DNA from: an uncultured Spirochaetota bacterium
GTDB lineage: Bacteria; Spirochaetota; Spirochaetia; Treponematales; Rectinemataceae
Reading direction: 5' to 3'
DNA length: 40,100 nt
Assembly: GCA_903821875.1 (NCBI GenBank)
Contig: CAIJMU010000014.1
Coordinates: 1-40,100, forward strand
In this document: piece by piece, positions 4,328 to 40,100 of the stretch
How positions within the stretch are numbered: the stretch's first letter is position 1
Layout of the letters: each line of letters starts with the position of its first letter
Position numbers and translations under genes: made by a program
The notes under the pieces: model-generated
What the model saw: the letters and a program-made list of their open reading frames with translations, nothing else
Told to the model about the DNA's origin: nothing
Databases searched by the model: none

Positions 4328-6537
4328 GCGCGCGCGTGGTACGGCCCCGGCGGCTGGTCGGAGAGGTTCCGCCCGAGGGCGCCTGGGAAGCCCGTCTGCT
4401 TTCCATGGGGACCGGCAAGCTGCTGGCGATGGCGCGCAACTATCTCGGGCCCGTCAAGACGCCCTATGACAAGCGGGAGATCGTCGGGCGCCTCGTTGGC
4501 TTCGTGAGGAGGCCCGAAACGAGGGTAGCCATAGCCGGCCTCCTCGATCCCGTGGATGCCCGGCTCGTGGGAGCACTCCTCCTCACGGGCCCCCTCCCCG
4601 AGGACGCCTTGCGCGACCTCTTCCGGGAGGACATCCGTGCCTTCGATTTCGGGCTCAGGCTTGCGAACCTCACCGATCGGCTCGTGCTCTTCGAGCAGCC
4701 CTCAGGCCAGGGCTCGCTCATTGCGGTAAACCCACTCCTGGCACCCGACCTTGCGCGGCTCTGCCTGTCCGCACGGGTCATCGTGGGCGCCGTGTCGAAG
4801 GAAGCGAAGCAGCCCTCCCTGCTGGTGGTACCTGCTGCGCCGGCAGCTACAGGAAAGGCCGGTCATCGACCCCTGGGGGCTGCCCTCGCGGCCGCTTTCA
4901 TCGGTCTCCTCCACCACAATCCTGCGGGTCTCAGGAAGGGTGGCATCCTTGGAAAGAAGGTCGAAGCCCGGCTTTCGGTCCTCCTTCCGGAACTCGCCGC
5001 CGACAAGGCGCGCCTTGAAACGATGGTCCGCGGACTGGCTGGAACGGGAGCGCTCTCCCGCGGCGAGGGTGAAGGCGAGGAAGCCGGAGTGGACGCAGCG
5101 GCCTTCATGGCGCTGGCCGGATGCTGGGGCTCGAGGCTCCCCCTGCGACTCGCGGTGGCCTCTGCCTTCGGTGGCGCGGTAAATGACCAATTGATCAATG
5201 CTCCCGGACCCGATGAATTCACCCGCTTCCTGGGTGGAGCCCTGTCGGCGCTTCCGGAAGGGACAGTACTGCCGGCTGCCGGCCTGCGACGCTGGATAGG
5301 CATCGCGGCCCTCAGGGCAGGCATTGCCCGGGACCCTGCCTTGCTCGAGGCTACCCTGTCCGCACTCATCGACCTGGGCTGGCTCTCACGCGAGGGTGGC
5401 GGGAGCGTCCGCCTCGAGGGCGATCCCCACGATAGTACTAAATATGATGAAGTCAGGCATCGGAGGGTGTTCGTGACCGACGGATCGCACTCCCTTTCCG
5501 TGTTGCCGGAGGCTGGACTCGACGACAGGATCTTCGCGCTCCTGGTGGCGGTACCGAAGGTCTACGGCAAGGTATGGGAGCTGGAACTCGGGCGCGATTC
5601 CATCCGCAGGGCCTTCGGAGCCGGCCTCGAGGCCGGCGAGATCGTGACCAGGCTTTCGGCCGGTTGCGGCATGCCCCTTCCGCAGAGCCTCGCTTTTTCC
5701 ATCGAGTCCTGGCGTGACGAATACCGCTCGCTGCGCCTTTTCCATGGTTTCGTCCTGGTCTGCGACGAGCGGGGCAGGCGCATCGTGGAAGGCCATCCGG
5801 AACTCTCCGCGATGGTGGCGGCTCGCCTCGGTGACGGGGTCTTTGCCATCGCCGCCCGGAGCCACGACGAGATCAGGTCGCGCTTCGCCGAGGCCGGGCT
5901 CGAATTGCCCGGAGAGATCCACGCCTTCGGTGCGCCAGATTCGCTTGTCGTTCCGGGCAGTGTGCCCGCGGAGACCTACCAGGCTGCCGGGATCCAGAGA
6001 GAAGACTTTGCCGCCATCGCCGGCTCGCTCTGGCGCGAACTCGTGGACGCGGAGGACAGGGCAGGGGAAGCGGGCGCCAGTGACGGTGTCCGTGAAAGTC
6101 CCGGCGACCTCGATCCTGCGCCGCGCCTCGAGACGCTCCGGGCCCTCCTTGTCGCCAGGGCTGACGGTGTGCCGACGGAGCTCACACGTGAGCTGTCGGA
6201 GCGGATAGAATCGCGTCTCATCCTCGACGCTGCCCAGCTCGCGCGCGCCGACGTCAGCCTCGGTGCCATAGAGGCGGGTGGTCTCGACTATGGCGGCAAG
6301 ACGCGGATCGCCGAACGTGCCCTGCGGACGCGCGGGGACCGCCTTGAAATTCGATACCAGTTGAGTGGAGAGCCGCCAACGGTCGCCATCGTGCGTCCAA
6401 CGCGCCTCGAGAAGACCCCCAAGGGCATCGTCCTCGAGGGCGAGGACCTGTCGACGGGCTTCCCGCTCAGGCTCCCCCTCGGGGCAGCCAGCATGGTGCG
6501 CAGGCTGCGCGCCACACCATTCGGAGATGATCAATGA
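4324..6537 (+). CDS. XPB-partner protein with helicase-associated (XPB/Ssl2 N-terminal-like) domain
   Basis: A 737-residue protein starting inside the XPB stop codon (ATGA) and ending in an ATGA overlap with the next gene, so all three products should be made in step. Middle and C-terminal parts resemble the stand-alone helicase-associated domain family (Helicase_C_3, PF13625). In particular the stretch FVLVCDERGRRIVEGHPEL followed by ARLGDGVFAIAARSHDEI resembles the fold used at the N-terminus of XPB (an LIVQ.D..VLLEV..P type strand plus a typical HTYRI/PLSLW region). The N-terminal 350 residues are rich in Leu and Ala with winged-helix-like segments (LIDLGWLSREGGGSVRLEG). No nuclease motif was recognised. 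Inference: a regulatory or DNA-loading subunit for the helicase. The family call is moderate; the functional partnership is inferred from coupling. Confidence 0.7.
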   Translation: MSARVVRPRRLVGEVPPEGAWEARLLSMGTGKLLAMARNYLGPVKTPYDKREIVGRLVGFVRRPETRVAIAGLLDPVDARLVGALLLTGPLPEDALRDLFREDIRAFDFGLRLANLTDRLVLFEQPSGQGSLIAVNPLLAPDLARLCLSARVIVGAVSKEAKQPSLLVVPAAPAATGKAGHRPLGAALAAAFIGLLHHNPAGLRKGGILGKKVEARLSVLLPELAADKARLETMVRGLAGTGALSRGEGEGEEAGVDAAAFMALAGCWGSRLPLRLAVASAFGGAVNDQLINAPGPDEFTRFLGGALSALPEGTVLPAAGLRRWIGIAALRAGIARDPALLEATLSALIDLGWLSREGGGSVRLEGDPHDSTKYDEVRHRRVFVTDGSHSLSVLPEAGLDDRIFALLVAVPKVYGKVWELELGRDSIRRAFGAGLEAGEIVTRLSAGCGMPLPQSLAFSIESWRDEYRSLRLFHGFVLVCDERGRRIVEGHPELSAMVAARLGDGVFAIAARSHDEIRSRFAEAGLELPGEIHAFGAPDSLVVPGSVPAETYQAAGIQREDFAAIAGSLWRELVDAEDRAGEAGASDGVRESPGDLDPAPRLETLRALLVARADGVPTELTRELSERIESRLILDAAQLARADVSLGAIEAGGLDYGGKTRIAERALRTRGDRLEIRYQLSGEPPTVAIVRPTRLEKTPKGIVLEGEDLSTGFPLRLPLGAASMVRRLRATPFGDDQ

Positions 6538-7337
6538 AGAGCAATCGTAACAATTCAGATGATTTTGGACACCAGGGGCAGCTCAAGCTCGCCGTGCTGG
6601 TCGATGCAGACAATACCCAGGCCTCCATCGTGGAGGGGCTCCTCGGCGAGATCGCGAAGTACGGGGTGGCCAGCGTCAAGCGCATCTACGGCGACTGGAC
6701 GAGCACCAACCTCCGCTCGTGGAAGGAGAAGCTCCTTGAGTACGCCATCCAGCCGGTGCAGCAGTTCGCATACACCTCGGGCAAGAACTCCACCGACTCC
6801 GCGATGATCATCGACGCGATGGATCTTCTCTACACCGAGAACCTCGACGGATTCTGCGTCGTGTCGAGTGACTCGGATTTCACGCGCCTCGCCGCCCGCC
6901 TCCGCGAGGACGGCAAGCTCGTCCTGGGCTTCGGGCAGAAGAAGACGCCCAAGCCCTTCGTCGCCGCCTGTGACAAGTTTGTCTACACGGAGATCCTGCG
7001 GGAGAACGAGGATGACAGCCACGGAGGCCGCGAGCCGAAAAAGGAAGCCGCCCCCGACATGAAGGGCGACAAGAAGATCAATACCCTCCTCAGGGCCGCG
7101 GTCGAAGACTCGGCCGATGAGTTCGGCTGGGCCTATCTCGGCGCAGTCGGTACCTACATCGCCAACCGGCTGCCGGAATTCGATTCCCGCAACTATGGCT
7201 TTCGCAAGCTCGGCGACCTCATCAAGGCCTCGGGGCTTTTCGAGATCGATGAGCGCGACAATCCCTACAACCCCGGCAAGCAGCTCTATATGCGCCTGCT
7301 CCAGAAGGGCAGCGAGAAGGGTGGCGGGAGGAGGTAA
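6534..7337 (+). CDS. NYN-domain (PIN-like) putative RNase with C-terminal OST-HTH/LOTUS domain
   Basis: A 267-residue protein of the LabA/NYN family. The N-terminal NYN domain contains LAVLVDADNTQ (acidic D24, D26), NSTDSAM (D88) and VVSSDSDFTRLAARLRE (D113, D115), which together form the PIN-like metal site. A charged linker (about 160-185) leads to an OST-HTH/LOTUS-type module (FGWAYLGAVGTYIANRLPEF, then YGFRKLGDLIKAS), a fold that binds RNA. It is translationally coupled to the helicase-partner gene and is the last gene of the XPB operon. Family knowledge: NYN+LOTUS proteins are predicted RNases with RNA-directed specificity. Why one is co-translated with a DNA helicase is unknown. Confidence 0.88.
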   Translation: MKSNRNNSDDFGHQGQLKLAVLVDADNTQASIVEGLLGEIAKYGVASVKRIYGDWTSTNLRSWKEKLLEYAIQPVQQFAYTSGKNSTDSAMIIDAMDLLYTENLDGFCVVSSDSDFTRLAARLREDGKLVLGFGQKKTPKPFVAACDKFVYTEILRENEDDSHGGREPKKEAAPDMKGDKKINTLLRAAVEDSADEFGWAYLGAVGTYIANRLPEFDSRNYGFRKLGDLIKASGLFEIDERDNPYNPGKQLYMRLLQKGSEKGGGRR

Positions 7338-7374
7338 GCGGGTGCATGAAGGGGATAGATCCTGGGTTCCAGGA

Positions 7375-7971
7375 CTACCTCAGCAGCCGCGATTCGGGAA
7401 CACCTAGAATTGCTGCGGCGCGGACGCGGTCGCCCGCGCTGCGTGAAAGGGCTTCGGCAATGTGGCGGGCCTCTACCTCCCTGAGCGTGAGGAAGTGCCC
7501 CGGAGGATCTTCGTATAGCAAGCTCCCGGTTTCATCGGACTCGCAGCGATCGAGCTTGCTGCGAAGGGCGATGTGCTGGCGGGCCTTGGCCAGGATCGTG
7601 CCCACGCGCGCCACAGAGATCGGTTTAGCCACGAAGTCGAAGGCGCCCTTGGCGATGCACTCCGACACTGTATCGGGATTCTCGTCACCGGTCACCACGG
7701 CAACGAGGCTCTGGGGCGCCATTACCCGCACCTCATGAAGTATCGAGGTACCGACCCTGTCTCCGAGGTCAAGGTCGAGGAGCACTAGATCAAAGCGCTG
7801 CTGGGCGAGGGCAGCAAAGAGTTCCTGGGCCGAGGCCGCCGTGTGATAGCGGTCGTCGCCCATCATCTCTACAGCACGCGTCTCGAACTCGAGGGTTGTC
7901 GGCTCGTCATCGACGAGGAGAAGCGACAGGCTGGGATCGTCGACGTTCCCGGAATGCAAGATGCGGTTCAT
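7375..7971 (-). CDS. Response regulator: receiver plus Fis-type helix-turn-helix
   Basis: A 198-residue protein with an N-terminal receiver (SLLLVDDEPTT acidic pair, phospho-acceptor Asp in LVLLDLDLGD, conserved Lys in VAKPI) and a C-terminal Fis/NtrC-type HTH (LTLREVEARHIAEAL, then AAAILGVPESRLLR). There is no AAA+ sigma-54 domain between them, so it is of the PrrA/ActR/RegA type. The HTH stops right after SRLLR, several residues before the family's usual end (YRKL...), so the recognition helix is minimal. A -10-like TACACT (plus-strand 7979-7984) sits 7 nt before the ATG with no ribosome-binding site, suggesting a leaderless message. No histidine kinase is adjacent. It converges on the NYN gene with 37 bp between them. 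Confidence 0.85.
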   Translation of the reverse strand: MNRILHSGNVDDPSLSLLLVDDEPTTLEFETRAVEMMGDDRYHTAASAQELFAALAQQRFDLVLLDLDLGDRVGTSILHEVRVMAPQSLVAVVTGDENPDTVSECIAKGAFDFVAKPISVARVGTILAKARQHIALRSKLDRCESDETGSLLYEDPPGHFLTLREVEARHIAEALSRSAGDRVRAAAILGVPESRLLR

Positions 7972-14733: not shown

Positions 14734-14945
14734 AGGTCTACCTCCAGAGCCATGGTCCCAGGCTCATTCCTTCCGGCAGGCTGCCGGGCGCGAGTGTGAT
14801 ACGGATAGCTTTGCCGAGACAAGCCATCCCGATTCTGCAAGAAAGGATGGCGGGCCCCTGCCCTGCACTTTGATGTCGTATTCCGCAATCGTCGCGCTTT
14901 ACAGGAAAATGGAGCTTAATATCGCCGCCTGTTAACGTCTGAGGC
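14734..14945. other. Intergenic region between aroE and the BmpA gene
   Basis: No gene is seen. The region holds the aroE leader and two hairpins: CCGGCAG/CTGCCGG at 14773-14787 (the arms meet around one base) and GCCATCC/GGATGGC at 14823-14851. No purine-riboswitch core was recognised, although one would be plausible upstream of a purine-nucleoside receptor. Confidence 0.4.
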
Positions 14946-14974
14946 TTGTCCAAAAGGCCCGAGGCATATAGAAT
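14946..14974 (+). promoter_or_regulatory. Putative sigma-70 promoter of the BmpA-type gene
   Basis: TTGTCC (14946-14951), a 17-bp spacer, and TAGAAT (14969-14974). The resulting leader to the ATG at 15021 is about 40 nt and ends with GGAGAG as the ribosome-binding site. Confidence 0.5.
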
Positions 14975-15020
14975 GTTTTCATGGCCCGCCTGTGGGCACA
15001 TCTTATTCCAGGAGAGCTTC

Positions 15021-16079
15021 ATGAAAAGCAAGATTCTTCTTCTCCTCCTCATTCCCGTAATCCTTCTCGCCAGCTGCGCGAAGAAGGCAGAACCCAAGGC
15101 CATGGCCAAGGCATTCACTGTCGGACTCGTCACCGATGTCGGAGGTATCGATGACAAGTCCTTCAACCAGGGCACCTGGGAAGGCGTCAAGGCCTTCGCT
15201 GACGAGATGAAGCTTTCCGTCGACAAGGACGTGAAATACCTCCAGTCCACCGCCGAGGCAGACTACCTCCCCAACCTCTCGGCCTTCGCCGACCAGAAGA
15301 TGGATCTTATCGTCGCGCCTGGCTTCCTCTTCAACAACGCGATGCTCGAGGCTGCCACCAAGTACCCGAACCAGAAGTTCCTCATCATCGACTCCGTCGT
15401 TGCTGACAAGGACGGGAAGAACATAGCCAACGTCGCCAACGCTGTATTCGCCGCCAACGAGGGTTCCTTCCTCGCCGGCGCCGCAGCCGGCCTGAAGGCC
15501 AAGGCTGACGGCAAGAAGGTTGTCGGCTATGTCGGCGGCATGGAGTTCCCCCTCATCCAGAGCTTCCAGGCTGGCTTCGAGCAGGGCGTCGCCGCCGTGT
15601 TCCCCGAGTGCAAGATCCTCGTCGACTACGTCGGCAACTTCACTGACGCCGGCAAGGGCCAGGCCCTCGCCGCCAAGCAGTTCGGAGCTGGTGCCTACGT
15701 CATCTTCCAGGTCGCCGGCGGCGCGGGAAACGGTGTCATCAAGGAAGCCAAGGAGCGCCAGGCCAAGGCTGATGTCCGCTGGGCCATCGGCGTCGACAAG
15801 GACCAGTACAACGACGGCGTCTTCGCCGACGGGAAGTCCGCTGTCCTGACCTCCATGATGAAGCGCGTCGACAACGCTGCCAAGGATGTCGCCACCCTCG
15901 CCATGAACGGCAAGTTCCCTGGTGGCACCGTCACGGTCTACTCCCTCGCCAACAACGGCGTCGGCCTCCCCGCCACCAACCCCAACCTCTCCGACGACAT
16001 CGTCAAGCAGGTCCAGGGCTATGCCGACCAGATCAAGGCCGGAACCCTCAAGGTCGCCGAGATGCCCACGAAGAAGTAA
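15021..16079 (+). CDS. BmpA/PnrA-type purine-nucleoside-binding lipoprotein (ABC receptor)
   Basis: A 352-residue BMP-family (Treponema PnrA/TmpC, Borrelia BmpA) solute receptor. The signal peptide MKSKILLLLLIPVILLASC ends in lipobox LLASC, so Cys19 is lipidated. The fold motifs VGLVTDVGGIDDKSFNQG, KVVGYVGGM and WAIGVDKDQY are typical of the family, and the Asp and Phe that hold the ribose and base lie in these. It delivers nucleosides to the ATPase and permeases encoded at 18054-21614, although two regulator genes and a strong terminator lie between. The codon choice is strongly biased to C-ending codons, more than neighbouring genes, consistent with high expression. Confidence 0.93.
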   Translation: MKSKILLLLLIPVILLASCAKKAEPKAMAKAFTVGLVTDVGGIDDKSFNQGTWEGVKAFADEMKLSVDKDVKYLQSTAEADYLPNLSAFADQKMDLIVAPGFLFNNAMLEAATKYPNQKFLIIDSVVADKDGKNIANVANAVFAANEGSFLAGAAAGLKAKADGKKVVGYVGGMEFPLIQSFQAGFEQGVAAVFPECKILVDYVGNFTDAGKGQALAAKQFGAGAYVIFQVAGGAGNGVIKEAKERQAKADVRWAIGVDKDQYNDGVFADGKSAVLTSMMKRVDNAAKDVATLAMNGKFPGGTVTVYSLANNGVGLPATNPNLSDDIVKQVQGYADQIKAGTLKVAEMPTKK

Positions 16080-16153
16080 GCCTAATTAGGCCGATCGACC
16101 ACCTTCGGGGCGGCGATCGGCTCCTCTCTGCCCGGCGACCCGGGTGGTAGATC
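16080..16153 (+). other. Structured 3' untranslated region with alternative stems
   Basis: Starts with a 12-bp perfect palindrome GCCTAATTAGGC (16080-16091) one base after the stop codon. CCGATCG (16091-16097) can pair with CGATCGG (16114-16120), while GATCGACCACC (16093-16103) can pair at 10 of 11 positions with GGTGGTAGATC (16143-16153). The two pairings exclude one another. The second ends exactly where the terminator stem starts. Confidence 0.45.
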
Positions 16154-25116: not shown

Positions 25117-25886
25117 GGGGACCCCGCCTCCGGCGGGCCATAACCGAAGCGGGCGAAGACGGCCCGCGCCTGTGGCGAGGACAGGAATGCTGCAAAGGCG
25201 CGAACGGCGGGCCGGGTCTGGTATCCTTTCATCACGACAAAGCCCTGCGTGATCGGCTCGTAGAGGGCAGGATCGACCGCGAACCAGTAGCGCCCTTCGA
25301 TGTCGAAGGGTGCGACCTCCTTTGCAGCCAATGCGGACTTGTTGACAAAGCCACCGTCCACGCTGGTCAGGGTGAACTGGAGGGTCTGCGTGACATTCTG
25401 CCCCATGACGAGCTTGGACCTAAGCTTTTCGTAGATCCCTGCATTGACGAGGGCCTGCCTTGCGGCCAGGCCGTAGGGCGCGGTTTCGGGATTGCTGATG
25501 GCGAACTGGATCACGGCCGGATCGAGGAGGAGTGCCAGTCCCTTCGCCAGATCGAGCTTCCTCGTAGTCAGGAATATCAGGGATCCGAGCGCGTAGACCT
25601 GGACCGCACCCTCGGTGAGTCCGCCCTCGACGAGGCGCTGCGGCATGGCCGTATCCGCCGACAGGAAAAGCTCGAAGGGAGCCCCGTTGAGGAGTTGCGC
25701 TACGAGGGCACCGGAGGCGCCGAAGGTGAATTCGACAGTGTTGCCAGGATAGTTTCGCGCGAAGGCCGAGGCCAGCGCTGGGGCGACGACACCGAGGTTG
25801 GAGGCGGCAGCGACCAGGACCCTTCCCTGGGCTCCGAGGCCGACAGATACGAGGAGGGCGAAGAGGAGCGCGAGGGATTTTCTCAT
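25113..25886 (-). CDS. modA: Molybdate-binding periplasmic protein
   Basis: A 257-residue solute-binding protein. The signal peptide MRKSLALLFALLVSVGLGAQG lacks a lipobox, so it should be a soluble periplasmic protein. The ModA motifs VAAASNL, FGASGALVAQL, PFELFLSAD and NPETAPYG are present. The Ser residues in the first two ligate oxyanion. Tungstate or molybdate is the expected ligand. It starts in an ATGA overlap with the upstream Fur-family gene, so it is co-regulated by that protein. Confidence 0.9.
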   Translation of the reverse strand: MRKSLALLFALLVSVGLGAQGRVLVAAASNLGVVAPALASAFARNYPGNTVEFTFGASGALVAQLLNGAPFELFLSADTAMPQRLVEGGLTEGAVQVYALGSLIFLTTRKLDLAKGLALLLDPAVIQFAISNPETAPYGLAARQALVNAGIYEKLRSKLVMGQNVTQTLQFTLTSVDGGFVNKSALAAKEVAPFDIEGRYWFAVDPALYEPITQGFVVMKGYQTRPAVRAFAAFLSSPQARAVFARFGYGPPEAGSP

Positions 25887-26344
25887 GACGAGGTTTCCTT
25901 TTCATCCGGGCCTGCCGCAGTCGCCCTCCCCTGGGCACAGCCGGGGCAGATCCCCTCCACCAGGAATTGCTTGCCGCGTACCTCGAAGCCTGTTGGTAGC
26001 TCGAGGTGGGGAAGGCGGAGGCCTTCGAGGCAGGTGAGGGCGCCGCAGGACAGGCAGAAGAAATGGGGATGATTGCCTGGGCAGGAGCTTCCTGAAGTCC
26101 GGTTGGCTACGAATCGGGAGACTCCATCGGTTCCTCGAACCTTGTGGAGGAGGCTGCTCTTCCGCAATTGCTTGATGCAGCGGAAAATAGTCACACGATC
26201 AAGGTCAGGCAGACGGGAGACGAGATCCTTGTGTGAAAGGGCCGCGTCGGTTGCCCAAAGGGCTTCGAGTGTCCGCTCCCGGAACCTGGTCGGGCGGAGA
26301 CCTGCCTCCTTTAGCCGCTTTGCTGCTGCAGTTGGAGCGTCCAT
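25883..26344 (-). CDS. Fur-family metal-dependent repressor
   Basis: A 153-residue regulator with an N-terminal winged helix (LRPTRFRERTLEAL, then LDRVTIFRCIKQLRKSSLL) and a C-terminal dimer domain. Zinc-type cysteine pairs are C97/C100 (FFCLSCG) and C133/C136 (GICPGC); H92 and H94 may take part in the regulatory site. It could be Zur, Fur or PerR-like; the sequence does not decide. It leads the modABC operon (ATGA overlap with modA), where ModE would be the usual regulator. A perfect 11-bp palindrome lies 25 bp upstream of its start and is the likely autoregulatory operator. Confidence 0.88.
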   Translation of the reverse strand: MDAPTAAAKRLKEAGLRPTRFRERTLEALWATDAALSHKDLVSRLPDLDRVTIFRCIKQLRKSSLLHKVRGTDGVSRFVANRTSGSSCPGNHPHFFCLSCGALTCLEGLRLPHLELPTGFEVRGKQFLVEGICPGCAQGRATAAGPDEKETSS

Positions 26345-26368
26345 TGGTCATGTAAGCATGGTTTTGAT

Positions 26369-26393
26369 GGTAATGCAACTGAGTTGCATTACC
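26369..26393. promoter_or_regulatory. Palindromic Fur-family operator
   Basis: Perfect 11-bp arms GGTAATGCAAC (26369-26379) and GTTGCATTACC (26383-26393) around a 3-bp centre. The arms and spacing resemble Fur/Zur-family boxes, and the site is 25 bp upstream of the Fur-family ATG. It lies between this gene and the GntR gene, and could affect both. Confidence 0.7.
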
Positions 26394-26435
26394 GCAGCTC
26401 GTTCTGTGCCTTGTACAGGGCCTCGCGGACGGGCT

Positions 26436-26466
26436 TTGTCCTGGACTTGCCAAACTGATATATCAG
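26436..26466 (+). promoter_or_regulatory. GntR promoter with overlapping palindromic operator
   Basis: TTGTCC (26436-26441), 17 bp and TATATC (26459-26464) form a promoter. The -10 lies inside a perfect 12-bp palindrome CTGATATATCAG (26455-26466), suited to a GntR dimer that represses its own operon. Confidence 0.55.
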
Positions 26467-26481
26467 GGCTATGCTTTGGCT

Positions 26482-27156
26482 ATGGAGACGGAAGCGGGCC
26501 CGGACAACTGCGCCACCCTGGCCCTGAGGGTCTATGGCGAGCTCAAGCTTCGACTCAACTCTGGGCTTCTCAAGCCTGGCGCTTACATCGATCAGGGAGC
26601 CTTGGGAACGGAGCTCGGCATGAGCCGGGCGCCTCTCCGCGACGCCCTCATCAGGCTCGAGACGGAGGGCTTTGTCAGTGTCCTTCCCCGCCGAGGCGTG
26701 AAGGTGCGTGTACTCGACCTTCCGACAATCCGCGACGTCTACGAGATCATCGGAGCACTGGAGTCAGCGACGGCGCGTTCGTTCCAGCCCTGCGATACAG
26801 ACATAATTAATATGAAAGCCCTCACTGTCGGGATGGATGAAGCCCTCGGTCGTGACGACTTCGATGCCTACTATGCCGCCAACGTAGCCTTCCACGAGGT
26901 CTACCTCTCTGTTTCGCCCAATACCGAGCTTCGGAAGCAGGTAACCCTCCTCAAGGAGAGGCTCTACGATTTCCCGAGGAAGCGGGGCTTCCTGAAGGCC
27001 TGGGAAGTCGCGTCGATGGCCGAGCATCGCGAGATCCTCGCGCGCTTCGGGAGTGGAGACTCCTGTGGGGCAGCAGACTGGATACGCGATGTCCACTGGT
27101 CCTACTCTTTCCAGGAGCCCTTTATCCGTGAGTATTACCAGGAGGCCTCAGGGTGA
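26482..27156 (+). CDS. GntR-family transcriptional regulator (FCD/FadR type)
   Basis: A 224-residue regulator. The N-terminal winged HTH is LRLNSGLLKPGAYIDQGAL, then LGMSRAPLRDALIRLETEGF and LPRRGVKV; the C-terminal all-helical FCD ligand domain follows (DLPTIRDVYEIIGALES, then AFHEVYLSV and EHREILARF). The metal-binding His and Asp positions of the FCD fold appear in place. The start at 26482 (ATG) is used; a TTG at 26476 two codons earlier has better spacing to an AGGG. It ends in a GTGA overlap with the activase gene, so it likely regulates the glycyl-radical operon in response to that enzyme's substrate or product. Confidence 0.9.
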   Translation: METEAGPDNCATLALRVYGELKLRLNSGLLKPGAYIDQGALGTELGMSRAPLRDALIRLETEGFVSVLPRRGVKVRVLDLPTIRDVYEIIGALESATARSFQPCDTDIINMKALTVGMDEALGRDDFDAYYAANVAFHEVYLSVSPNTELRKQVTLLKERLYDFPRKRGFLKAWEVASMAEHREILARFGSGDSCGAADWIRDVHWSYSFQEPFIREYYQEASG

Positions 27157-31678: not shown

Positions 31679-31719
31679 CGGGGAATAAGATGGAATGAAA
31701 AAAGGTGGCGGGAGGGAAA

Positions 31720-34044
31720 ATGGCAGGTGAACTCATTGCGCACGCAAAAAAGGAGCCTTCAGGCACATGGGCCTTGCCACACAGCCTTCTCGAGCATGTC
31801 CGCGGCGTAGCTTCGCTTTCCGAGTGCTTCGCTGCGGATTTCAAAAATGGGGACTGGGGACGCTTGGCAGGGCTTTGGCATGACTTAGGCAAGTATCGTC
31901 TGGAGTTCCAGGAATACATCCGCAAGGTTAGCGGTTTCGAGAATGACGAGGCCAATGAGGGAGGCCCCGGACGTGTGGATCACTCTGTAGTCGGCGCGCT
32001 TTGGGCAGCGGAGCGATATAAGGAGTATCCCGTAGGGCCAGCCCGAGTCCTCAGTTACCTTATCGCAGGGCATCATGCAGGACTTCCGGACTGGAATAAT
32101 GTGGCAGGCATAGGTGCTTCGCTCGAGGTTCGGTTACGGGACTCTTCCCCTCTCGAATCTGCCATGAAGGGGAACCCTCCAAACGAGCTACTTCAAGCAG
32201 AACTGGCTACTAGTCAGCCCTGTGGAAAGGACCAGACGCTTGAGGTTGCTGAAGAGCTCCGCTCACAATTCCACCTTTGGATCAGGATGCTTTTCTCCTG
32301 CCTTGTAGACGCTGATTTCCTCGATACCGAGGCTTATATGACCCCTGCGGATACGAAGCGCAGGGCTGAGAGTCAGATCAGCCTGGAAGAGGCAAGAGTC
32401 ATGCTGGATCGCCACCTCTCTGATTTAGGAAGGTCAGCGGCGCAGACCGACATCAACCAGGCACGACAGCAGATACTCAATCAATGCAGACAATCTGCCG
32501 TGCTCGATCCTGGGCTGTTCTCGCTGACGGTGCCTACGGGAGGAGGCAAAACCCTGGCTGGAATGGCCTTCGCGCTCGAGCATGCGATCGCCCATGGGAA
32601 GCGCAGGATTGTGGTCGTGATACCTTATACCAGCATCATCGAGCAGACAGCAGCGGTTTACCGGGGCGTATTCGGCGATGAAGCCGTGATCGAACACCAT
32701 TGCAATCTTGATCCTGATCACGAAACGCGAGCCTCGAGGCTCGCCTCGGAAAACTGGGATGCACCCATCATCGTGACGACGAATGTCCAGTTTTTCGAGT
32801 CCCTCTTTGCGTCGCGGAGTTCTGCGTGCAGGAAACTCCACAACCTCGTCAATTCAGTAATCATCATCGACGAGGCCCAGATCCTGCCAGTGGGGTTCCT
32901 TCAACCCGTCGTCGAGGTCATGAGGGGGCTGGTTGAATTGTTTGGGGCGACGTTAGTCCTCTCAACCGCGACCCAGCCCGCACTGGCAGGTAGTCTTGGT
33001 TCGGGCCAAGCTATTTTTCGGGGTTTCACGGATGGGGTCGTGCGCGAAATCATCACCGACCCTCCTGGGCTGGCAAGACGACTCAGACGAGTCGAGATCT
33101 CAATGCACCAAAATAGTGAGGAGGCTGTCCCTTGGGAAGAACTTGCGGTAGAGGTCGGGAATCACGAGCAGGTACTCTGTATTGTTAATACCCGAAAGGA
33201 TTGTCGCGATTTCCACGCACTGCTTCCCGAAGGGGCCGTGCATCTGTCTGCCCTCATGTGTCCGGAACACAGAAGCGAGACGATCGCAAGGATCAAGGCT
33301 GACCTCGCAAGTGGCAGAGCAATCAGGGTTGTGAGCACACAATTAGTTGAGTCGGGCGTTGATATTGATTTCCCTATTGTCTACAGAGCGCTTGCTGGCC
33401 TCGACTCCATAGCCCAGGCGGCAGGGCGATGCAATCGCGAGGGGCGACTCGGCGAGGGAAAGCTTGGCAAGGTTATCGTATTCATGTCACCTATGGCAGC
33501 CCCTTCAGGCATGCTCCGGAAGGGACAGGATGCCGGGCGCGAAATGATCCGGCTCTTTCCCGAGGAGGTGGCCCGGCTGGCGCCTGAGACCTTTGAACGC
33601 TATTTCAAGCTGCTTTACGGTCGCGTAAACAGTTTTGACGAGAAGGGCATCATGCGGCTCCTTGCGGGACCGGATATCGAAGAGGCAAAGGTACAGTTCC
33701 GAACTGCAGCTTCGCGATTTTCCCTGATCGATGATGGGGGGCAACAGGCGATAATTGTTGACTTTGCGAGCCAGCGGAGCAAAGCTGATGAAGGTTTGTC
33801 TGCTGCTGCACTGGTTGCCAAGGTGGAAGCCTTTGGTCCCGACCGAGCTACCATGCGGCGGCTTCAGCGCTACACGGTCAATGTGCCTCGGAATGTTTTT
33901 AGGTTGCTTCAGGCGGATGGCTCCATCCGCGTTTTGCAGAGACTCGATGGCTTGTATGTTCAAGCGCTGCCGGGACTCTATGACGGAAACTTCGGACTCA
34001 GGCTCGACGGCCCGATCCTGAGTCCTATGGATTTCATTGCATAA
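31720..34044 (+). CDS. cas3: Cas3 helicase-nuclease (type I-C)
   Basis: A 774-residue HD nuclease fused to an SF2 helicase. HD residues: H21 and H26 (HSLLEH), H54-D55 (WHDLGK), D87-H88 and H118-H119 (GHHAGLPDW). Helicase: Walker A PTGGGKT at 272-278, DEAQ at 384-387, motif III STATQP, and motif VI QAAGRCNREGR. It unwinds and degrades target DNA after recruitment by the I-C complex. The start at 31720 has GGGAGGG four bases upstream; a GTG at 31705 is possible but less likely. All catalytic motifs look intact. Confidence 0.96.
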   Translation: MAGELIAHAKKEPSGTWALPHSLLEHVRGVASLSECFAADFKNGDWGRLAGLWHDLGKYRLEFQEYIRKVSGFENDEANEGGPGRVDHSVVGALWAAERYKEYPVGPARVLSYLIAGHHAGLPDWNNVAGIGASLEVRLRDSSPLESAMKGNPPNELLQAELATSQPCGKDQTLEVAEELRSQFHLWIRMLFSCLVDADFLDTEAYMTPADTKRRAESQISLEEARVMLDRHLSDLGRSAAQTDINQARQQILNQCRQSAVLDPGLFSLTVPTGGGKTLAGMAFALEHAIAHGKRRIVVVIPYTSIIEQTAAVYRGVFGDEAVIEHHCNLDPDHETRASRLASENWDAPIIVTTNVQFFESLFASRSSACRKLHNLVNSVIIIDEAQILPVGFLQPVVEVMRGLVELFGATLVLSTATQPALAGSLGSGQAIFRGFTDGVVREIITDPPGLARRLRRVEISMHQNSEEAVPWEELAVEVGNHEQVLCIVNTRKDCRDFHALLPEGAVHLSALMCPEHRSETIARIKADLASGRAIRVVSTQLVESGVDIDFPIVYRALAGLDSIAQAAGRCNREGRLGEGKLGKVIVFMSPMAAPSGMLRKGQDAGREMIRLFPEEVARLAPETFERYFKLLYGRVNSFDEKGIMRLLAGPDIEEAKVQFRTAASRFSLIDDGGQQAIIVDFASQRSKADEGLSAAALVAKVEAFGPDRATMRRLQRYTVNVPRNVFRLLQADGSIRVLQRLDGLYVQALPGLYDGNFGLRLDGPILSPMDFIA

Positions 34045-34054
34045 GGAGGTGGAA

Positions 34055-34771
34055 ATGGAGCATTTCAACAAGATTTTCTGCTTGGAGGTGCAGGGTGACT
34101 ATGCCTGCTTCACGCGGCCGGAGATGAAGGTGGAGCGTGTAAGCTACGACGTACCAACGCCTTCAGCTGTGCGGGCGATCTTTGAGGCAATCTTCTGGAA
34201 ACCGGCGGTTAGGTGGCGGGTGTGCAGGATCGAGGTTCTCAAGCCCATCCGCTGGACATCCGTTCGGCGCAACGAGGTAGGATCGGTGATGAGCGATCGC
34301 AGCCCGGGACTTTTCATCGAGGATGTCAGGCAGCAGCGGGCTGGGTTGTTCCTTCGCGATGTTGCCTATCGCCTTCATGCGGAACTCGAGTTCATTCCCA
34401 GGGAAAAGCGTGGAGCAACCGTTCATCCACAGCCTGACTGGCTTGTAGACACGGCAGAGCGAGAAGGCGATATCACTGGCAGGGACGAGAATCCCGGCAA
34501 GTACAACGCCATGTTCGAGCGCAGGGCGAGGAAGGGACAATGTTTCAACCAGCCCTACCTCGGGTGCCGGGAATTCAGCTGCTCGTTCGCCCTGGTGGAA
34601 TCCAATGCTATGGTAACTAGCCCTATCGATGAGACTCGGGATCTTGGTTTCATGCTCTACGACCTTGATTTTACGAAGCCGGATGACATCAGGCCAGCAT
34701 TTTTCCGCGCCAAGCTTGAAAAGGGAGTCATTGCGGTGCCTCCATGGGAAAGCGAGGATGTACGCCAATGA
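34055..34771 (+). CDS. cas5c: Cas5c (Cas5d) pre-crRNA processing endonuclease
   Basis: A 238-residue RAMP protein that, in type I-C, replaces Cas6 and cuts the repeat 3' of its hairpin. The N-terminal CFTRPEMKVERVSYDVPTPSA and C-terminal GQCFNQPYLGCREF are family signatures. The catalytic Lys-His pair known from Bacillus halodurans Cas5d is at K149-Y150 here (NPGKYNAMF): Lys is kept, His is Tyr. The nearby GQCFH is GQCFN. The start at 34055 has an ideal AAGGAGGTG upstream; an ATG at 34037 lies inside the cas3 end and is unlikely. It overlaps cas8c by ATGA. Confidence 0.94.
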   Translation: MEHFNKIFCLEVQGDYACFTRPEMKVERVSYDVPTPSAVRAIFEAIFWKPAVRWRVCRIEVLKPIRWTSVRRNEVGSVMSDRSPGLFIEDVRQQRAGLFLRDVAYRLHAELEFIPREKRGATVHPQPDWLVDTAEREGDITGRDENPGKYNAMFERRARKGQCFNQPYLGCREFSCSFALVESNAMVTSPIDETRDLGFMLYDLDFTKPDDIRPAFFRAKLEKGVIAVPPWESEDVRQ

Positions 34772-36510
34772 TACTCCAGGCCTTGTTTGAATACTATCAG
34801 AGGAAGGCTGCTGACCCGGAGAGCAGTATTGCCCCAGAGGGCTTCGAGTGGAAGGAGTTGCCTTTCCTGATCGTCATTGATGACGATGGTAATTTTGTCA
34901 GGCTTGAGGATACGAGGGAGGGGGAGGGTAAAAAGAAGCGAGGCAAAAAATATCTTGTCCCTCAAGGGGAAAAAAGAACGGTCGGTATCGCAGCAAACCT
35001 CCTTTGGGATAATCCTGAATATGTGCTCGGGGCCAATTATCGCGGACGCTCGGATGTAGCATTACGGCATGAAGCCTTTATCGAACGCTACAAGATGGCC
35101 TTTAGCTCAAGTTTTCTGAATCCGGGTGTCGTAACCGCTATGAAATTCTTGGAGTCCAACGCAGAGAAAAAGAAAGCCATAGATGCGCTTTCAGACGAGG
35201 CATGGAAAGAATTCCTCGAAAGCAATGCAAACACCTCAATCAGAATCGAAGGTAGGAGCCACCAGACAATCGCTGATGAGATCGCTTCTCTAGCCGTTGA
35301 GGAATCATGCGATGAAAAAGGTGTCTGCCTGGTTTCAGGCAAAGACGACTTGATCCCGGCGCTCAACCCGGCGATCAAGGGTGTCCGGGATGCCCAGTCC
35401 TCTGGAGCAGCATTAGTCTCATTCAACTTGCCGGCTTTCCGGTCCTATGGGAAGGAGCAGAACGAGAATGCTCCTATTGGCAAGAATGCTGTTTTTGCGT
35501 ACACCACCGCGCTCAATGGCCTATTGGGGGACGACCCCAACCATATTCAGATCGGCGATGCAACCACCATTTTCTGGGCACAAAAAAAAGATTCGGTCTT
35601 TGAAAAGAACCTGAAGCCCTTCTTTTTTGCCGCAGGCAAGAAGAAGGACGACCCCGATCGCGATGCTGCCGATACGAAAGCGAATCTTGAATCAGCCCTT
35701 TCGGGCATTCCTCCTGCAGAAATGGCAACAAGGTTCTACATTCTTGGGCTTTCGCCCAACGCGGCACGGATATCCGTTCGCTTCTGGCACCAGGGTACGG
35801 TTGGTGAATTCTGCATGACGATGAAGCGTCATTTTGCGGATCTAGAGATTATTGCTCCAGCCTATGACCCCTGCCGTATGAGCCTCCAATATCTTCTCGG
35901 GGCTACGGTACGGGACTGGAAATCAGAGGATATCCCGCCGAACCTTGCGGGGAATGTTATGCGGGCAGTATTGAACGATACATTGTACCCTGAAACCTTT
36001 TCAAATCAATGCATCAGGCGTATCAGGGCAGAACGGGAGGTTAGCCGAGCGCGAGCCTCGATTCTCAAGGCATGCCTGAACAGGAAGACGCGTTCATCAT
36101 GCAGTGGCAAAGAAAAGGAGATGACTGTGGCACTTGATTCTTCGAATACGAATGTGGGCTATCGGCTAGGGAGGCTTTTTGCGGTGCTTGAGAAAATCCA
36201 GGAGGACGCTAGCCCTGGCCTCAATGCGACCATCCGGGACCGTTACTACGGGGCAGCGTCCTCGAGTCCATCGACAGTGTTCCCTCGTTTGTTAAGTCTC
36301 ACGAACCATCATCTTGCCAAGCTGGAGAACCGAGGACAGAAAATCAACCATGAAAAGCGCCTTGCAGTGATTATTGATGGACTGACGCCTTCGATGCCTG
36401 CCCACTTGGTCATGGACGACCAGGCACGCTTTGCTATCGGTTACTACCACCAGCGCCAGGCGCTGTTTACCTCGACAAAAGACAACACCCAAGGAGCAAG
36501 AAATGAATAA
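34768..36510 (+). CDS. cas8c: Cas8c large subunit
   Basis: A 580-residue type I-C large subunit (Csd1), which recognises the PAM and holds the R-loop. Start at 34768 in an ATGA overlap with cas5c. Family segments are visible: FLIVIDDDGNFVRLED near the N-terminus, VCLVSGKDDLIPALNPAIKGVRDAQSSGA in two parts, ISVRFWHQGTVGEF, and YLLGATVRDWKSEDIPPNLAGNVMRAV. The C-terminal 127 residues are also made separately as Cas11c (see next entry). It overlaps cas7c by 8 nt. Confidence 0.95.
   Translation: MILQALFEYYQRKAADPESSIAPEGFEWKELPFLIVIDDDGNFVRLEDTREGEGKKKRGKKYLVPQGEKRTVGIAANLLWDNPEYVLGANYRGRSDVALRHEAFIERYKMAFSSSFLNPGVVTAMKFLESNAEKKKAIDALSDEAWKEFLESNANTSIRIEGRSHQTIADEIASLAVEESCDEKGVCLVSGKDDLIPALNPAIKGVRDAQSSGAALVSFNLPAFRSYGKEQNENAPIGKNAVFAYTTALNGLLGDDPNHIQIGDATTIFWAQKKDSVFEKNLKPFFFAAGKKKDDPDRDAADTKANLESALSGIPPAEMATRFYILGLSPNAARISVRFWHQGTVGEFCMTMKRHFADLEIIAPAYDPCRMSLQYLLGATVRDWKSEDIPPNLAGNVMRAVLNDTLYPETFSNQCIRRIRAEREVSRARASILKACLNRKTRSSCSGKEKEMTVALDSSNTNVGYRLGRLFAVLEKIQEDASPGLNATIRDRYYGAASSSPSTVFPRLLSLTNHHLAKLENRGQKINHEKRLAVIIDGLTPSMPAHLVMDDQARFAIGYYHQRQALFTSTKDNTQGARNE
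36127..36510 (+). CDS. cas11c: Cas11c small subunit, internal in-frame start in cas8c
   Basis: In type I-C systems the small subunit is translated from within cas8c. An AAGGAG at 36115-36120 sits 6 nt before an in-frame GTG at 36127; an in-frame ATG at 36121 is too close to it. The product would be 127 residues, beginning VALDSSNTNVGYRLGRLF, a length and position typical of Cas11c. The text LGRLFAVLEKIQEDA and ending GYYHQRQALFTSTK match the Cas8c C-terminal helical domain. Expression was not measured; the call rests on the ribosome-binding site and the established biology. Confidence 0.75.
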   Translation: MALDSSNTNVGYRLGRLFAVLEKIQEDASPGLNATIRDRYYGAASSSPSTVFPRLLSLTNHHLAKLENRGQKINHEKRLAVIIDGLTPSMPAHLVMDDQARFAIGYYHQRQALFTSTKDNTQGARNE

Positions 36511-37414
36511 TCCACTTACCCGCCGCTATGACTTCGCCTTCTTTTTCGATGTGCAGGACGGTAATCCCAATGGCGATCCGGATGCGGGCAACCTGCCGCG
36601 CATCGATGCGGAGACGGGCATGGGTCTCGTGACTGATGTGTGCCTGAAAAGGAAAGTTCGTAATTATGTTCAAATCAGGAAAGAGTTCGTCCGGCCTTAT
36701 GATATTTTCGTGAAAGAAAAGGGGATATTGAATGTCAAGATAGCGGAGGCCTATTCTGACCTCAAGATCGATCTTGACGCGATTCCTGTGGATACTGCAG
36801 ACGGTAAGAGACGCAACTCAAAAGGCGAGGCGCAGGGTGGGGAAGTAAGCAAGGGCCGAAAATACATGTGTGACCGCTACTTCGATATCCGAACATTTGG
36901 AGCGGTGATGTCGACTGGCGCGAATGCCGGGCAGGTCCGCGGTCCCATCCAGCTTGTGTTTGCGCGCTCTGTGGAACCAGTAGTCACCCTCGAGCACAGC
37001 ATTACCCGCATGGCTGTGGCCACGGAGGCCGAGGCCGAAAAGCAATCCGGAGACAACCGGACGATGGGTCGAAAGTACACGATTCCATATGGTCTGTACA
37101 GAACGCATGGCTTCATCTCAGCGCACCTTGCCGCACAGACGGGCTTTGGCGAGGAGGATCTCGCGCTGTTCTGGGAGGCTATGCAAAACATGTTTGAGCA
37201 CGATCGCTCGGCCGCACGGGGACTGATGTGCTCGCGAAGGCTCATTATATTCGAGCATGCTACGCCTCTAGGAAACAAGCCAGCACATGAGCTTTTCGAG
37301 CGCCTTACCTGGAAAAGGACGTCCGAGGGACCTGCGCGTGCCTTCACTGACTTTGAGATTTCGCTAGACGGTAAGGGCTTATCAGAAACGACTACGGTTG
37401 TGAAGGTCGGCTGA
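36503..37414 (+). CDS. cas7c: Cas7c (Csd2) backbone subunit
   Basis: A 303-residue RAMP that coats the crRNA in multiple copies. The N-terminus RRYDFAFFFDVQDGNPNGDPDAGN and IDAETGMGLVTDVCLKRKVRNY are hallmark Csd2 motifs; later ITRMAVATEAE, MGRKYTIPYGLYRTHGF and LFWEAMQNMFEHDRSAARG also fit. The start at 36503 has AAGGAG 6 nt upstream, just before the cas8c stop. It is followed by a hairpin (37422-37450) and a 344-bp gap before cas4. Confidence 0.95.
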   Translation: MNNPLTRRYDFAFFFDVQDGNPNGDPDAGNLPRIDAETGMGLVTDVCLKRKVRNYVQIRKEFVRPYDIFVKEKGILNVKIAEAYSDLKIDLDAIPVDTADGKRRNSKGEAQGGEVSKGRKYMCDRYFDIRTFGAVMSTGANAGQVRGPIQLVFARSVEPVVTLEHSITRMAVATEAEAEKQSGDNRTMGRKYTIPYGLYRTHGFISAHLAAQTGFGEEDLALFWEAMQNMFEHDRSAARGLMCSRRLIIFEHATPLGNKPAHELFERLTWKRTSEGPARAFTDFEISLDGKGLSETTTVVKVG

Positions 37415-37757
37415 TACCAGTCCCATGGCAGGCTACGAGCTTGCCGTGGGATAGGGCTTTGGCAGCTTCCCTACTTATTATATGTCGCATTTGCAATTAC
37501 ATGAAGTGCCATTAGTGATGGCGTTTGTCATGCCATACGCCATGAATGATGGCTGGTATGGTGGGGAGGTGAAGGCGATGACCCTTGTGTGCGATCGGGA
37601 CTTGGCGGGCCTTAAGGCCCTGCGTGAGGGGGTAGGCTTGTGTGCTATATCGTCGTCTGAATGCAAGGGAGACCGGAATTGCGCGAAGGGATAGAGATCG
37701 TGCCTTGGCAGTATTTCCTTGATGTCCTTTGGAATGGGTCGGTTCTGAAAACCGATT
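37415..37757. other. 344-bp gap in the cas operon, palindrome-rich, no confident gene
   Basis: No recognisable protein. A 70-codon frame at 37482-37694 has no ribosome-binding site and no family resemblance. Seen in it: a hairpin 37422-37450; ATGGCGT (37518-37524) with ACGCCAT (37537-37543); a perfect 14-bp palindrome GGGCCTTAAGGCCC (37607-37620); a repeat-like stretch at 37616-37640; and TCGGTT/AACCGA at 37739-37755. The direct repeat CTTGTGTGC occurs at 37584-37592 and 37637-37645. The gap probably holds a noncoding or regulatory element. Confidence 0.5.
37422..37450 (+). other. Hairpin after cas7c
   Basis: An 11-bp stem (with two G-U pairs) formed by CCCATGGCAGG (37422-37432) and CTTGCCGTGGG (37440-37450), loop of 7 nt. 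No T run follows, so it may be an mRNA stabiliser that raises cas7c output rather than a terminator. Confidence 0.5.
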
Positions 37758-38393
37758 ATGTCGATGTACGATGACGATGACCTGCTTCCGCTTTCTGCAC
37801 TGCAACACCTCTTGTTCTGCGAGCGGCAATGCGCTCTTATCCATATCGAGCAGGCTTGGGCGGAAAATTCATTTACGGCGGAAGGGCGACTGCTCCACGA
37901 GCGGGCTCACTCGGAGAAAGGAGAGCGGCGTCCGGGCAAAAAAAAGGAATTTGGCATGCCCATACGTTCGCTCAAGCTAGGCTTAATTGGAAAGACCGAT
38001 GCCGTTGAGTATGGAAACGATGGCAGTGCGCTAGTGGTCGAATACAAGCGAGGAAAGCCGAAAAGAGGGCGGGAGGATGAGGTCCAGCTTTGCGCGCAGG
38101 CTCTCTGCCTCGAAGAGATGCGAAATACTTGCATCCAGTCAGGGGTACTGTTCTACGGGAAGACGAGAAGGCGTAAGGAAGTTGCGTTTGACACAGAGCT
38201 CAGGGCATTAGTCATCAATACCGCACAAAGGCTTCATGAAGTGGTCGCATCCGGAAAGACCATCAGGGCAAGCTACGAAGAAGCCAAATGCGCACATTGC
38301 TCCTTGCTGGAGCTTTGCTTGCCTGCCCGAGGGAAGCGAGAGCGAAGCGTTACTGCTTATGTTGAGCGAATGACGAAGGAAGCTGAACCATGA
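37758..38393 (+). CDS. cas4: Cas4 exonuclease
   Basis: A 211-residue RecB-type nuclease that trims prespacers and checks their PAM. The 4Fe-4S cysteines are C21 (or C25) near the N-terminus and C178, C181 and C187 near the C-terminus. Nuclease residues D81 (IGKTDAVE), E95 and K97 (VVEYKRGKPK) and the QLCAQALCLEE helix (about 110-120) are intact. No clear ribosome-binding site precedes it, and a small stem (37739-37755) lies just upstream. Overlaps cas1 by ATGA. Confidence 0.95.
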   Translation: MSMYDDDDLLPLSALQHLLFCERQCALIHIEQAWAENSFTAEGRLLHERAHSEKGERRPGKKKEFGMPIRSLKLGLIGKTDAVEYGNDGSALVVEYKRGKPKRGREDEVQLCAQALCLEEMRNTCIQSGVLFYGKTRRRKEVAFDTELRALVINTAQRLHEVVASGKTIRASYEEAKCAHCSLLELCLPARGKRERSVTAYVERMTKEAEP

Positions 38394-39421
38394 AGAGGAT
38401 GCTTAATACCCTTTTTGTCATGACACAAGGTTCATATCTCAAGAAGGAAGGGGAAGCCGCAGTTGTGAAGGTAGGAGAGGTCGTGAAGCTGCGCGTGCCA
38501 TTTGTCTCCATATCTTCGATAGTATGCTTCGGGGACGTCATGATGAGCCCCTATCTCATGGGCGCCTGTGCAAAGGCTGGGATATCGATATGCTGGTTGA
38601 GTTTGTACGGAAGATTCCTGGCGAGGGTCGAAGGACCGGTGCACGGAAACGTGCTACTGCGACGGGAGCAGTATCGGGTATCCGAGGACCGAAACAAGGC
38701 AGCCAGCATTGCGAGGATCATGGTCGCGGCTAAAATATCCAATTCTCGTGCTGTGCTATTGCGTGCAATGCGCGATCACGCCGACAAATTTGATACCGCG
38801 CGCATGGATGGCGTTTCAACTATCCTGAAACGCCGAGTCGAAGATGTCCTCGGTGAAAGCGACCTCAATAGGATTCGAGGATATGAAGGGGACTCCGCGA
38901 AAGCGTATTTCTCAGTTTTCAATGAATTAATACTTGTTCAGAAAGCTGATTTCTCATTCACCGACAGGAACAGAAGACCGCCTCGCGATCGAGTTAACGC
39001 GTTGCTTTCGTTTGTCTATACAATGCTCTATAATGACTTGCGATCGATGCTTGAAGTCACTGGTCTCGATCCGGCTGTTGGCTTCCTTCATCGCGATAGG
39101 CCAGGACGCATGAGCCTCGCTCTTGATCTCATGGAAGAGTTTCGCCCTTTCGTCGCAGATCGATTAGTCCTGTCGTTGATAAACCTGAAGCAGGTCGCAG
39201 GCAAAGCCTTCGACATTTCTGAATCCGGTACCGTCATGATGCATGAGACTGCTCGCAAAACGGTGGTGGCAGCCTGGCAAACCAGGAAGCAGGATGCATT
39301 AGTACATCCATTTCTTGAAGATGAGATGCATATAGGCATCGCTATGCAAAGCCAGGCGATGCTACTCGCCCGTCACCTCCGTGGAGATATCGACGGATAT
39401 CCGGCTTTTTTTTGGAAGTGA
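38390..39421 (+). CDS. cas1: Cas1 integrase (type I-C)
   Basis: A 343-residue Cas1. Metal-binding residues E166 (RGYEGDSAK), H234 (VGFLHRDRPGR) and D246/E250 (ALDLMEEFRP) are conserved. With Cas2 it inserts new spacers at the leader end. It is coupled to cas4 by ATGA and followed 3 nt later by cas2. All active-site residues are in place. Confidence 0.97.
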   Translation: MKRMLNTLFVMTQGSYLKKEGEAAVVKVGEVVKLRVPFVSISSIVCFGDVMMSPYLMGACAKAGISICWLSLYGRFLARVEGPVHGNVLLRREQYRVSEDRNKAASIARIMVAAKISNSRAVLLRAMRDHADKFDTARMDGVSTILKRRVEDVLGESDLNRIRGYEGDSAKAYFSVFNELILVQKADFSFTDRNRRPPRDRVNALLSFVYTMLYNDLRSMLEVTGLDPAVGFLHRDRPGRMSLALDLMEEFRPFVADRLVLSLINLKQVAGKAFDISESGTVMMHETARKTVVAAWQTRKQDALVHPFLEDEMHIGIAMQSQAMLLARHLRGDIDGYPAFFWK

Positions 39422-39424
39422 AGC

Positions 39425-39712
39425 ATGATGGTATTGGTGAGTTACGATGTTGCGCAGAATGACCATGGTGCGAGAAGGCTTAGAAAAGTCTCCAAAACCT
39501 GTCTCAATTACGGCCAGCGTGTGCAGTATTCGGTGTTTGAATGTCTGATCGATCCTGCCCAGTGGACGGTTTTCAGGCAGCAGCTGATCTCAGCTATAGA
39601 TAAAGAGTACGACAGCTTGCGTTTCTATTTTCTAGGAGCTAACTGGAAGCGAAGGGTAGAACATATAGGTGCCAAGGCCGTCATGGACCCAGAAGGGCCG
39701 ATGATAGTGTAG
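39425..39712 (+). CDS. cas2: Cas2
   Basis: A 95-residue Cas2 of the I-C type: VLVSYDVAQNDHGARRLRKVSKTC, then NYGQRVQYSVFECLID and LRFYFLGANWKRRVEHIG. These are the ferredoxin-like strands and helix of the Cas2 dimer that bridges two Cas1 dimers. It is the last cas gene before the leader. Confidence 0.96.
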   Translation: MMVLVSYDVAQNDHGARRLRKVSKTCLNYGQRVQYSVFECLIDPAQWTVFRQQLISAIDKEYDSLRFYFLGANWKRRVEHIGAKAVMDPEGPMIV

Positions 39713-39877
39713 CGCGAACCAGAAGCTGACAGAATTTCCGCAGCCTAGGATAATTTCATAATTACATACTGTATAACTATATATGTATGGTAGCCATTCG
39801 GATGATGATAAACACTATTGAGGTTCGCGCAAGCTATGCGATAGCTCATTGATGGAGAATGGGTTAAAGTATATGGC
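39713..39877 (+). promoter_or_regulatory. CRISPR leader
   Basis: A 165-bp A/T-rich leader between cas2 and the first repeat. It is bracketed by a perfect 9-bp inverted repeat GCGCGAACC (39712-39720) and GGTTCGCGC (39822-39830), and has a palindrome AGCTAT-GCG-ATAGCT at 39832-39846, 31 bp before the first repeat. TATAAC at 39772-39777 is a possible -10 for the array. These are candidates for leader-anchoring or IHF-like integration signals. Confidence 0.7.
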
Positions 39878-39975
39878 GTCGCCCTCTTCGCGAGGGCGTG
39901 GATTGAAACGACAAACGAGTCATCGACCTGCTGCTAGAGAGGAGTCGCCCTCTTCGCGAGGGCGTGGATTGAAAC
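39878..39975 (+). CRISPR. Type I-C CRISPR array start: two repeats, one spacer
   Basis: Two identical 32-nt repeats at 39878-39909 and 39944-39975, separated by a 34-nt spacer (39910-39943). Each holds a 7-bp stem CGCCCTC/GAGGGCG with loop TTCGC and ends in TGGATTGAAAC, the standard I-C pattern. No third repeat lies in the remaining 125 bases, where one is expected at about 40010. Spacer 1 is GC-rich and has an open frame. Confidence 0.95.
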
Positions 39976-40100
39976 ATAGCGAGACTCATAGCGGCGGAGA
40001 ATGCCTTCTGGACGGTGAACGTCCTCGTGCGGGCGATCCCGGCGCCGTCGGGCATCGAGTACGAAGACGGATACCTCCTCGCCCTCTATGGGGACCAGGA
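39976..40100 (+). other. Open reading frame with no start, running from the second repeat to the window end
   Basis: The frame beginning at 39976 is open for 41 codons to the edge with mostly G or C at third positions, reading for example AIPAPSGIEYEDGYLL. The codon just upstream in the repeat is TGA two codons back, and there is no ATG. It looks like the inside of a protein gene (viral or host; not recognised) that begins abruptly at the repeat edge. It may be the second spacer joined to its protospacer by the assembler, or the flank of a two-repeat array. Confidence 0.5.

Follow-up and report, generated by a model that had tools for sequence, protein, structure and literature searches.

The window, which is the complete contig C14 and the whole stretch of DNA analyzed here (40,100 bases), holds a type I-C CRISPR array, one spacer of which is phage-derived, together with what is most likely an informative assembly artefact. 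Judged by homology, the 125 nucleotides (nt) that follow repeat 2 are one in-frame piece of a phage YqaJ/RecE-like recombination exonuclease gene. Spacer 2 very probably derives from the exonuclease gene of a phage, the assembly having run from the spacer into the protospacer of that co-sampled phage. The join between array and phage is thus probably an artefact of assembly rather than real DNA; we infer both the exact phage and its presence in the sample.

A type I-C locus probably divided between two contig ends

The bin that includes contig C14 comprises 193 contigs (4.68 Mb), and the CRISPR-Cas system of C14 is an ordinary type I-C system. The signature genes cas8c, cas5c and cas7c are present, with the models TIGR01863, TIGR01876 and TIGR02589 all over cut-off, and lie beside cas3 and the adaptation genes cas4, cas1c and cas2 (Table 1). 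In cas3, the HD model is above its cut-off and the helicase model TIGR01587 reaches 93.7 bits, below its cut-off of 102.45. The operon order, cas3-cas5c-cas8c-cas7c-cas4-cas1-cas2, is the usual order of type I-C. A stretch of ∼340 nt within the operon (37415-37757, between cas7 and cas4) is free of assigned genes. The features shared with other type I-C systems are the gene content, the 32-nt repeat ending in GAAAC and the spacers of 33-35 nt; a putative 5′ TTC/TTT protospacer-adjacent motif (PAM) would be a further one. Nothing about the system on C14 is unusual; its one oddity is the contig end.

Table 1. Features of the CRISPR-Cas locus at the end of contig C14
Feature	Coordinates	Strand	Evidence or remark
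cas3 (HD nuclease + helicase)	31705..34044	+	NCBIfam TIGR01596, 97.1 bits, over cut-off
cas5c	34049..34771	+	TIGR01876, 252.5 bits
cas8c/csd1	34744..36510	+	TIGR01863, 551 bits
cas7/csd2	36503..37414	+	TIGR02589, 389.1 bits
cas4	37758..38393	+	TIGR00372, 133.2 bits
cas1c	38390..39421	+	TIGR03640, 482.5 bits
cas2	39425..39712	+	TIGR01573, 69.7 bits
Presumed leader	39713..39877	+	165 nt, cas2 to repeat 1; position only
CRISPR repeat 1	39878..39909	+	32 nt; weak Rfam CRISPR-DR9 match, below gathering score
Spacer 1	39910..39943	+	34 nt, between the two repeats
CRISPR repeat 2	39944..39975	+	Identical to repeat 1
Spacer 2	39976..40009	+	In frame, codons 1-11 of the phage exonuclease piece
Phage YqaJ/RecE-like exonuclease gene, continued past the spacer (protospacer flank)	40010..40100	+	Runs to contig end

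The array stops on C14 because the contig ends there. The last 125 nt of C14 contain no third repeat; the best match to the repeat has 16 of 32 identities, with a mean of 15.0 and a maximum of 19 among shuffles. Another contig of the bin, C80, terminates in seven further identical copies of the repeat. Read in the direction of the array, C80 opens with a cut spacer of 19 nt, followed by seven repeats with six spacers of 33-35 nt. The other half of the array therefore also sits at a contig end, which lies 19 nt past the outermost repeat. Together, C14 and C80 hold nine identical repeats and seven full spacers, all of 33-35 nt, and it is from this length that the 3′ edge of spacer 2 (40009) was set. 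The cut spacer of C80, compared by eye, differs from the end of spacer 2, so that C14 and C80 are separated by one or more missing repeats. Should the pieces belong to one array, as their ends suggest, it comprises at least ten repeats and was broken by assembly.

A reading of C14 made from the sequence only had described an array that stops after two repeats. The description holds for the contig, which has no third repeat, and fails for the array, which continues with seven repeats on C80. The alternative offered by that reading, the shortest possible array beside a gene fragment, is contradicted by the same second piece. The repeat was not found in the other 29 genomes of the family, and neither the repeat nor spacer 1 has an exact match in the viral contigs of IMG/VR. 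On C80, the stretch past the last repeat (∼25354-26853; L005 1-1500) contains a frame resembling a transposase; inspection by eye also suggests a small nucleotidyltransferase/HEPN-like pair.

Identity of the 125 nt after repeat 2

Starting at 39976, frame 1 runs for 41 codons without a stop; it lacks a start codon and carries G or C at the third position in 34 of the 41, in agreement with the G/C-rich third positions noted earlier. The sequence-only reading had singled out this one frame; it is indeed open, although three of the six frames are open across the 125-nt tail. An open frame is present in 785 of the 796 125-mers sampled from the window, and its openness in the tail is therefore no evidence of coding. 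The frame is taken as real on the basis of homology.

The tail has only weak matches in phage records, with a best E value of 0.3 for DNA and 0.7 for protein (tblastn). The exonuclease identity was first suspected because three of these weak matches, by tblastn in phages GBK2 and phi1422 and by DNA in Prairie, all fall within a YqaJ/RecE-like exonuclease gene; the next gene after it is annotated as RecT or RecT-like in GBK2 and Prairie. The remaining weak DNA matches and a protein match in an E. coli phage were left aside. A protein search of 390 genomes of the order gave best foreign matches with E values of 8e-5 and up (per genome), mostly exonuclease genes. Of its 14 loci, 11 were kept; L040, L044 and L045 are not exonucleases and were dropped. 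A motif scan of IMG/VR yielded 11 contigs, each with an exonuclease frame of the YqaJ/RecE-like kind. The contig L046, retrieved with a degenerate pattern for FWTVNVLV, was rejected as a chance match.

The 41 residues of the tail have no match in Pfam or PHROGs. The tail begins after the PF09588 catalytic core, which is carried by the relatives (10 of the 10 given), and a piece of only 41 codons that lacks the core is hence left unscored by these databases. It continues the YqaJ/RecE-like family (PF09588, phrog_434) just C-terminal of the core, with the FW and PAP motifs kept. A profile was generated from a family picked by the catalytic core and not by the tail, consisting of 61 viral and 24 genome loci. 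Ten loci on contigs that the motif scan had also found were removed to avoid circularity, leaving 75 independent loci and 62 distinct proteins. This 62-member profile scores the tail at 25.4 bits (E 3.8e-10, one sequence searched), while the best of 2000 shuffles reaches 2.0 bits. In the opposite direction, the exonuclease of the closest phage, used as query against the 390 genomes of the order, finds the C14 tail with an E value of 5.8e-11 and 61% identity.

The likeness to the family extends across the edge of the spacer. Codons 1-11, within spacer 2, score 18.7 against the family with a control maximum of 8.3 (n=63,749, window), and codons 12-41, past the spacer, score 24.6 with a control maximum of -2.8 (n=46,070, window). 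DNA identity to the closest phage gene is 26/34 in the expected spacer and 66/89 past it. Since both sides of the edge fit the family at near-equal identity, spacer 2 and the sequence that follows it are, on this homology, from one phage gene.

The same relatives provide a view of the PAM. Residue and codon comparison drew on 76 distinct proteins, one of which was too short and was dropped, leaving 75 members. The residue before the matching stretch is phenylalanine in 47 of these (TTT in 35, TTC in 12), including all 23 members most similar to the tail. In the closest phage gene, which belongs to a relative and not to the target phage, TTC lies directly upstream of the stretch matching spacer 2, where the sequence-only reading had said to look for it. 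The type I-C PAM of Neisseria lactamica is given as TTC and TTT, located 5′ of the protospacer (PMC10865793). The PAM of the target itself is probably TTC or TTT, as deduced from its relatives.

Phages related to the target

The closest phages are two IMG/VR contigs, 3300048575_000392 and 3300048578_000349, which match all 125 nt at 75% identity by blastn (E 6.6e-20 and 3.1e-20, respectively) are identical to the tail at 26 of 41 residues and have TTC before the matching stretch. Neither is the target phage itself, as 8 of the 34 positions of spacer 2 differ. Spacer 2 and two 26-nt flanks have no exact match in the viral contigs of IMG/VR. The search of phage databases with the 125 nt, which had been proposed beforehand, thus recovered related contigs at 75% but not the exact phage. 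The tail has no match in plasmids.

The phage related to the target looks temperate from its gene content, as the closest contig carries an integrase, a RecT-like gene and an RtcB-like ligase. On the related phage L150, an RtcB-like RNA ligase, the conserved phrog_2045 of unknown function and an integrase are located at 6238-7458, 4390-5205 and 14897-16144, respectively. The other spacers of the array have no clear match in the related phage; none but spacer 1 exceeds its shuffles, at 23/34 where the shuffles reach at most 22.

The 24 genome loci of the exonuclease family include 15 titled Treponema, one Treponemataceae and one Spirochaetia, a count biased by a search alignment drawn mostly from this order. 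One single-contig genome of the order (G129:C1) harbors the exonuclease gene in three almost equal copies, at 1160348, 1837839 and 2645331, which perhaps represent three related prophages.

Origin of the junction and its meaning

The proposed course of events begins with the acquisition of spacer 2 (39976-40009) from a phage YqaJ/RecE-like exonuclease gene, beside a TTC (or TTT) PAM. The target phage would have been in the sample too. Its protospacer and spacer 2 would match without a difference over ∼35 nt and would therefore give rise to graph nodes common to both at small k-mer sizes. The assembler would then have left the array at spacer 2 and followed the phage for ∼91 nt to the contig end, while the true array would go on, across one or more further repeats, to the C80 piece. 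The sequence-only reading had proposed such a jump from spacer 2 into a phage protospacer, and its interpretation is supported by the exonuclease genes of relatives, which match the 125 nt unbroken across the spacer edge, and by the TTC just before the match in the closest of them; its observations are confirmed in part.

The contig ends of the bin bear on the method of assembly. Exact end-to-end overlaps among 124 contig ends are 141 (three pairs), 119, 106 and 36 bases long; 12 ends of six contigs (C18, C22, C41, C43, C55 and C60), whose sequence appears to be masked, gave only artificial matches and were ignored. The overlaps of 141 and 119 bases indicate a multi-k de Bruijn assembly. Both values are present in the default k-mer list of MEGAHIT, whose smallest default k-mers are 21 and 29. 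Array and phage would share nodes at k 21 and 29 and not at 39 and above, and a wrong path chosen early in assembly can persist. The 125-nt overhang does not fit a k-mer size, being neither 119 nor 141, and simple k-mer sharing therefore does not account for where the contig stops. The 141- and 119-base overlaps also suggest that contigs such as C8 and C16, and C6 and C35, are graph neighbors. CRISPR repeats can yield chimeric contigs and fragmented assemblies (PMC6617893). The passage in question concerns repeats, while the case of C14 would be a jump through a spacer. Among the listings and abstract openings covered, no paper describes an assembly that passes from a spacer into the protospacer matching it, which is not proof of absence.

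Other origins of the junction can be envisaged. A phage or prophage may have recombined with the array through the identity of spacer and protospacer in some cells, so that the two are now joined at spacer 2. Homology-driven joining is conceivable, since array and phage meet exactly at the spacer and the target exonuclease is one half of a recombination pair, a RecT-like partner being encoded nearby in the related phage. Such an event would, however, be expected to leave traces that the bin does not show: there is no second junction (phage-spacer 2-repeat), and the 125 nt, spacer 2 included, occur once. Furthermore, the cut spacer at the start of C80 is a different one, no YqaJ gene in the bin passes the cut-off, and the bin contains no other phage gene of this exonuclease kind. 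A real junction of this sort is very unlikely. In its more specific form, a phage encoding both an exonuclease and a RecT would have entered the array by recombination over the 34 nt that spacer 2 shares with the protospacer, so that the array's own target broke it; this is extremely unlikely.

The length of the spacers and the position of the gene piece weigh on the remaining explanations. If spacer 2 were an abnormally long acquisition, with 125 nt or more taken from the phage gene, the junction would be real without any jump; the PAM and reading-frame evidence would look identical, and the contig stops too early for a third repeat to appear. All seven complete spacers are nevertheless 33-35 nt long, and Cas1-Cas2 acts as a fixed ruler for spacer length, which renders such an acquisition highly improbable. 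The array could also truly end after repeat 2 and adjoin a chromosomal prophage remnant, given the phage-like DNA and an unbroken contig at that point. However, the first codon of the gene piece directly abuts the repeat and is the one following a conserved phenylalanine (TTC/TTT), as spacer acquisition predicts, and seven more repeats are present on C80; a remnant at this position is exceedingly improbable.

On the favored explanation, an assembly path from spacer 2 into the protospacer, an uncultured bacterium of a spirochaete order is linked to a phage through a spacer that is near the leader and probably recent. A phage gene and a probable PAM are thereby obtained without a phage genome. 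The end of a contig just past a CRISPR repeat can hold sequence from the flank of a phage protospacer, which annotation pipelines would mistake for a short array or a gene of the host. Searching specifically for contig ends of this type could provide further links between hosts and phages. The join of array and target, though probably not real DNA, shows what the bacterium was defending against.
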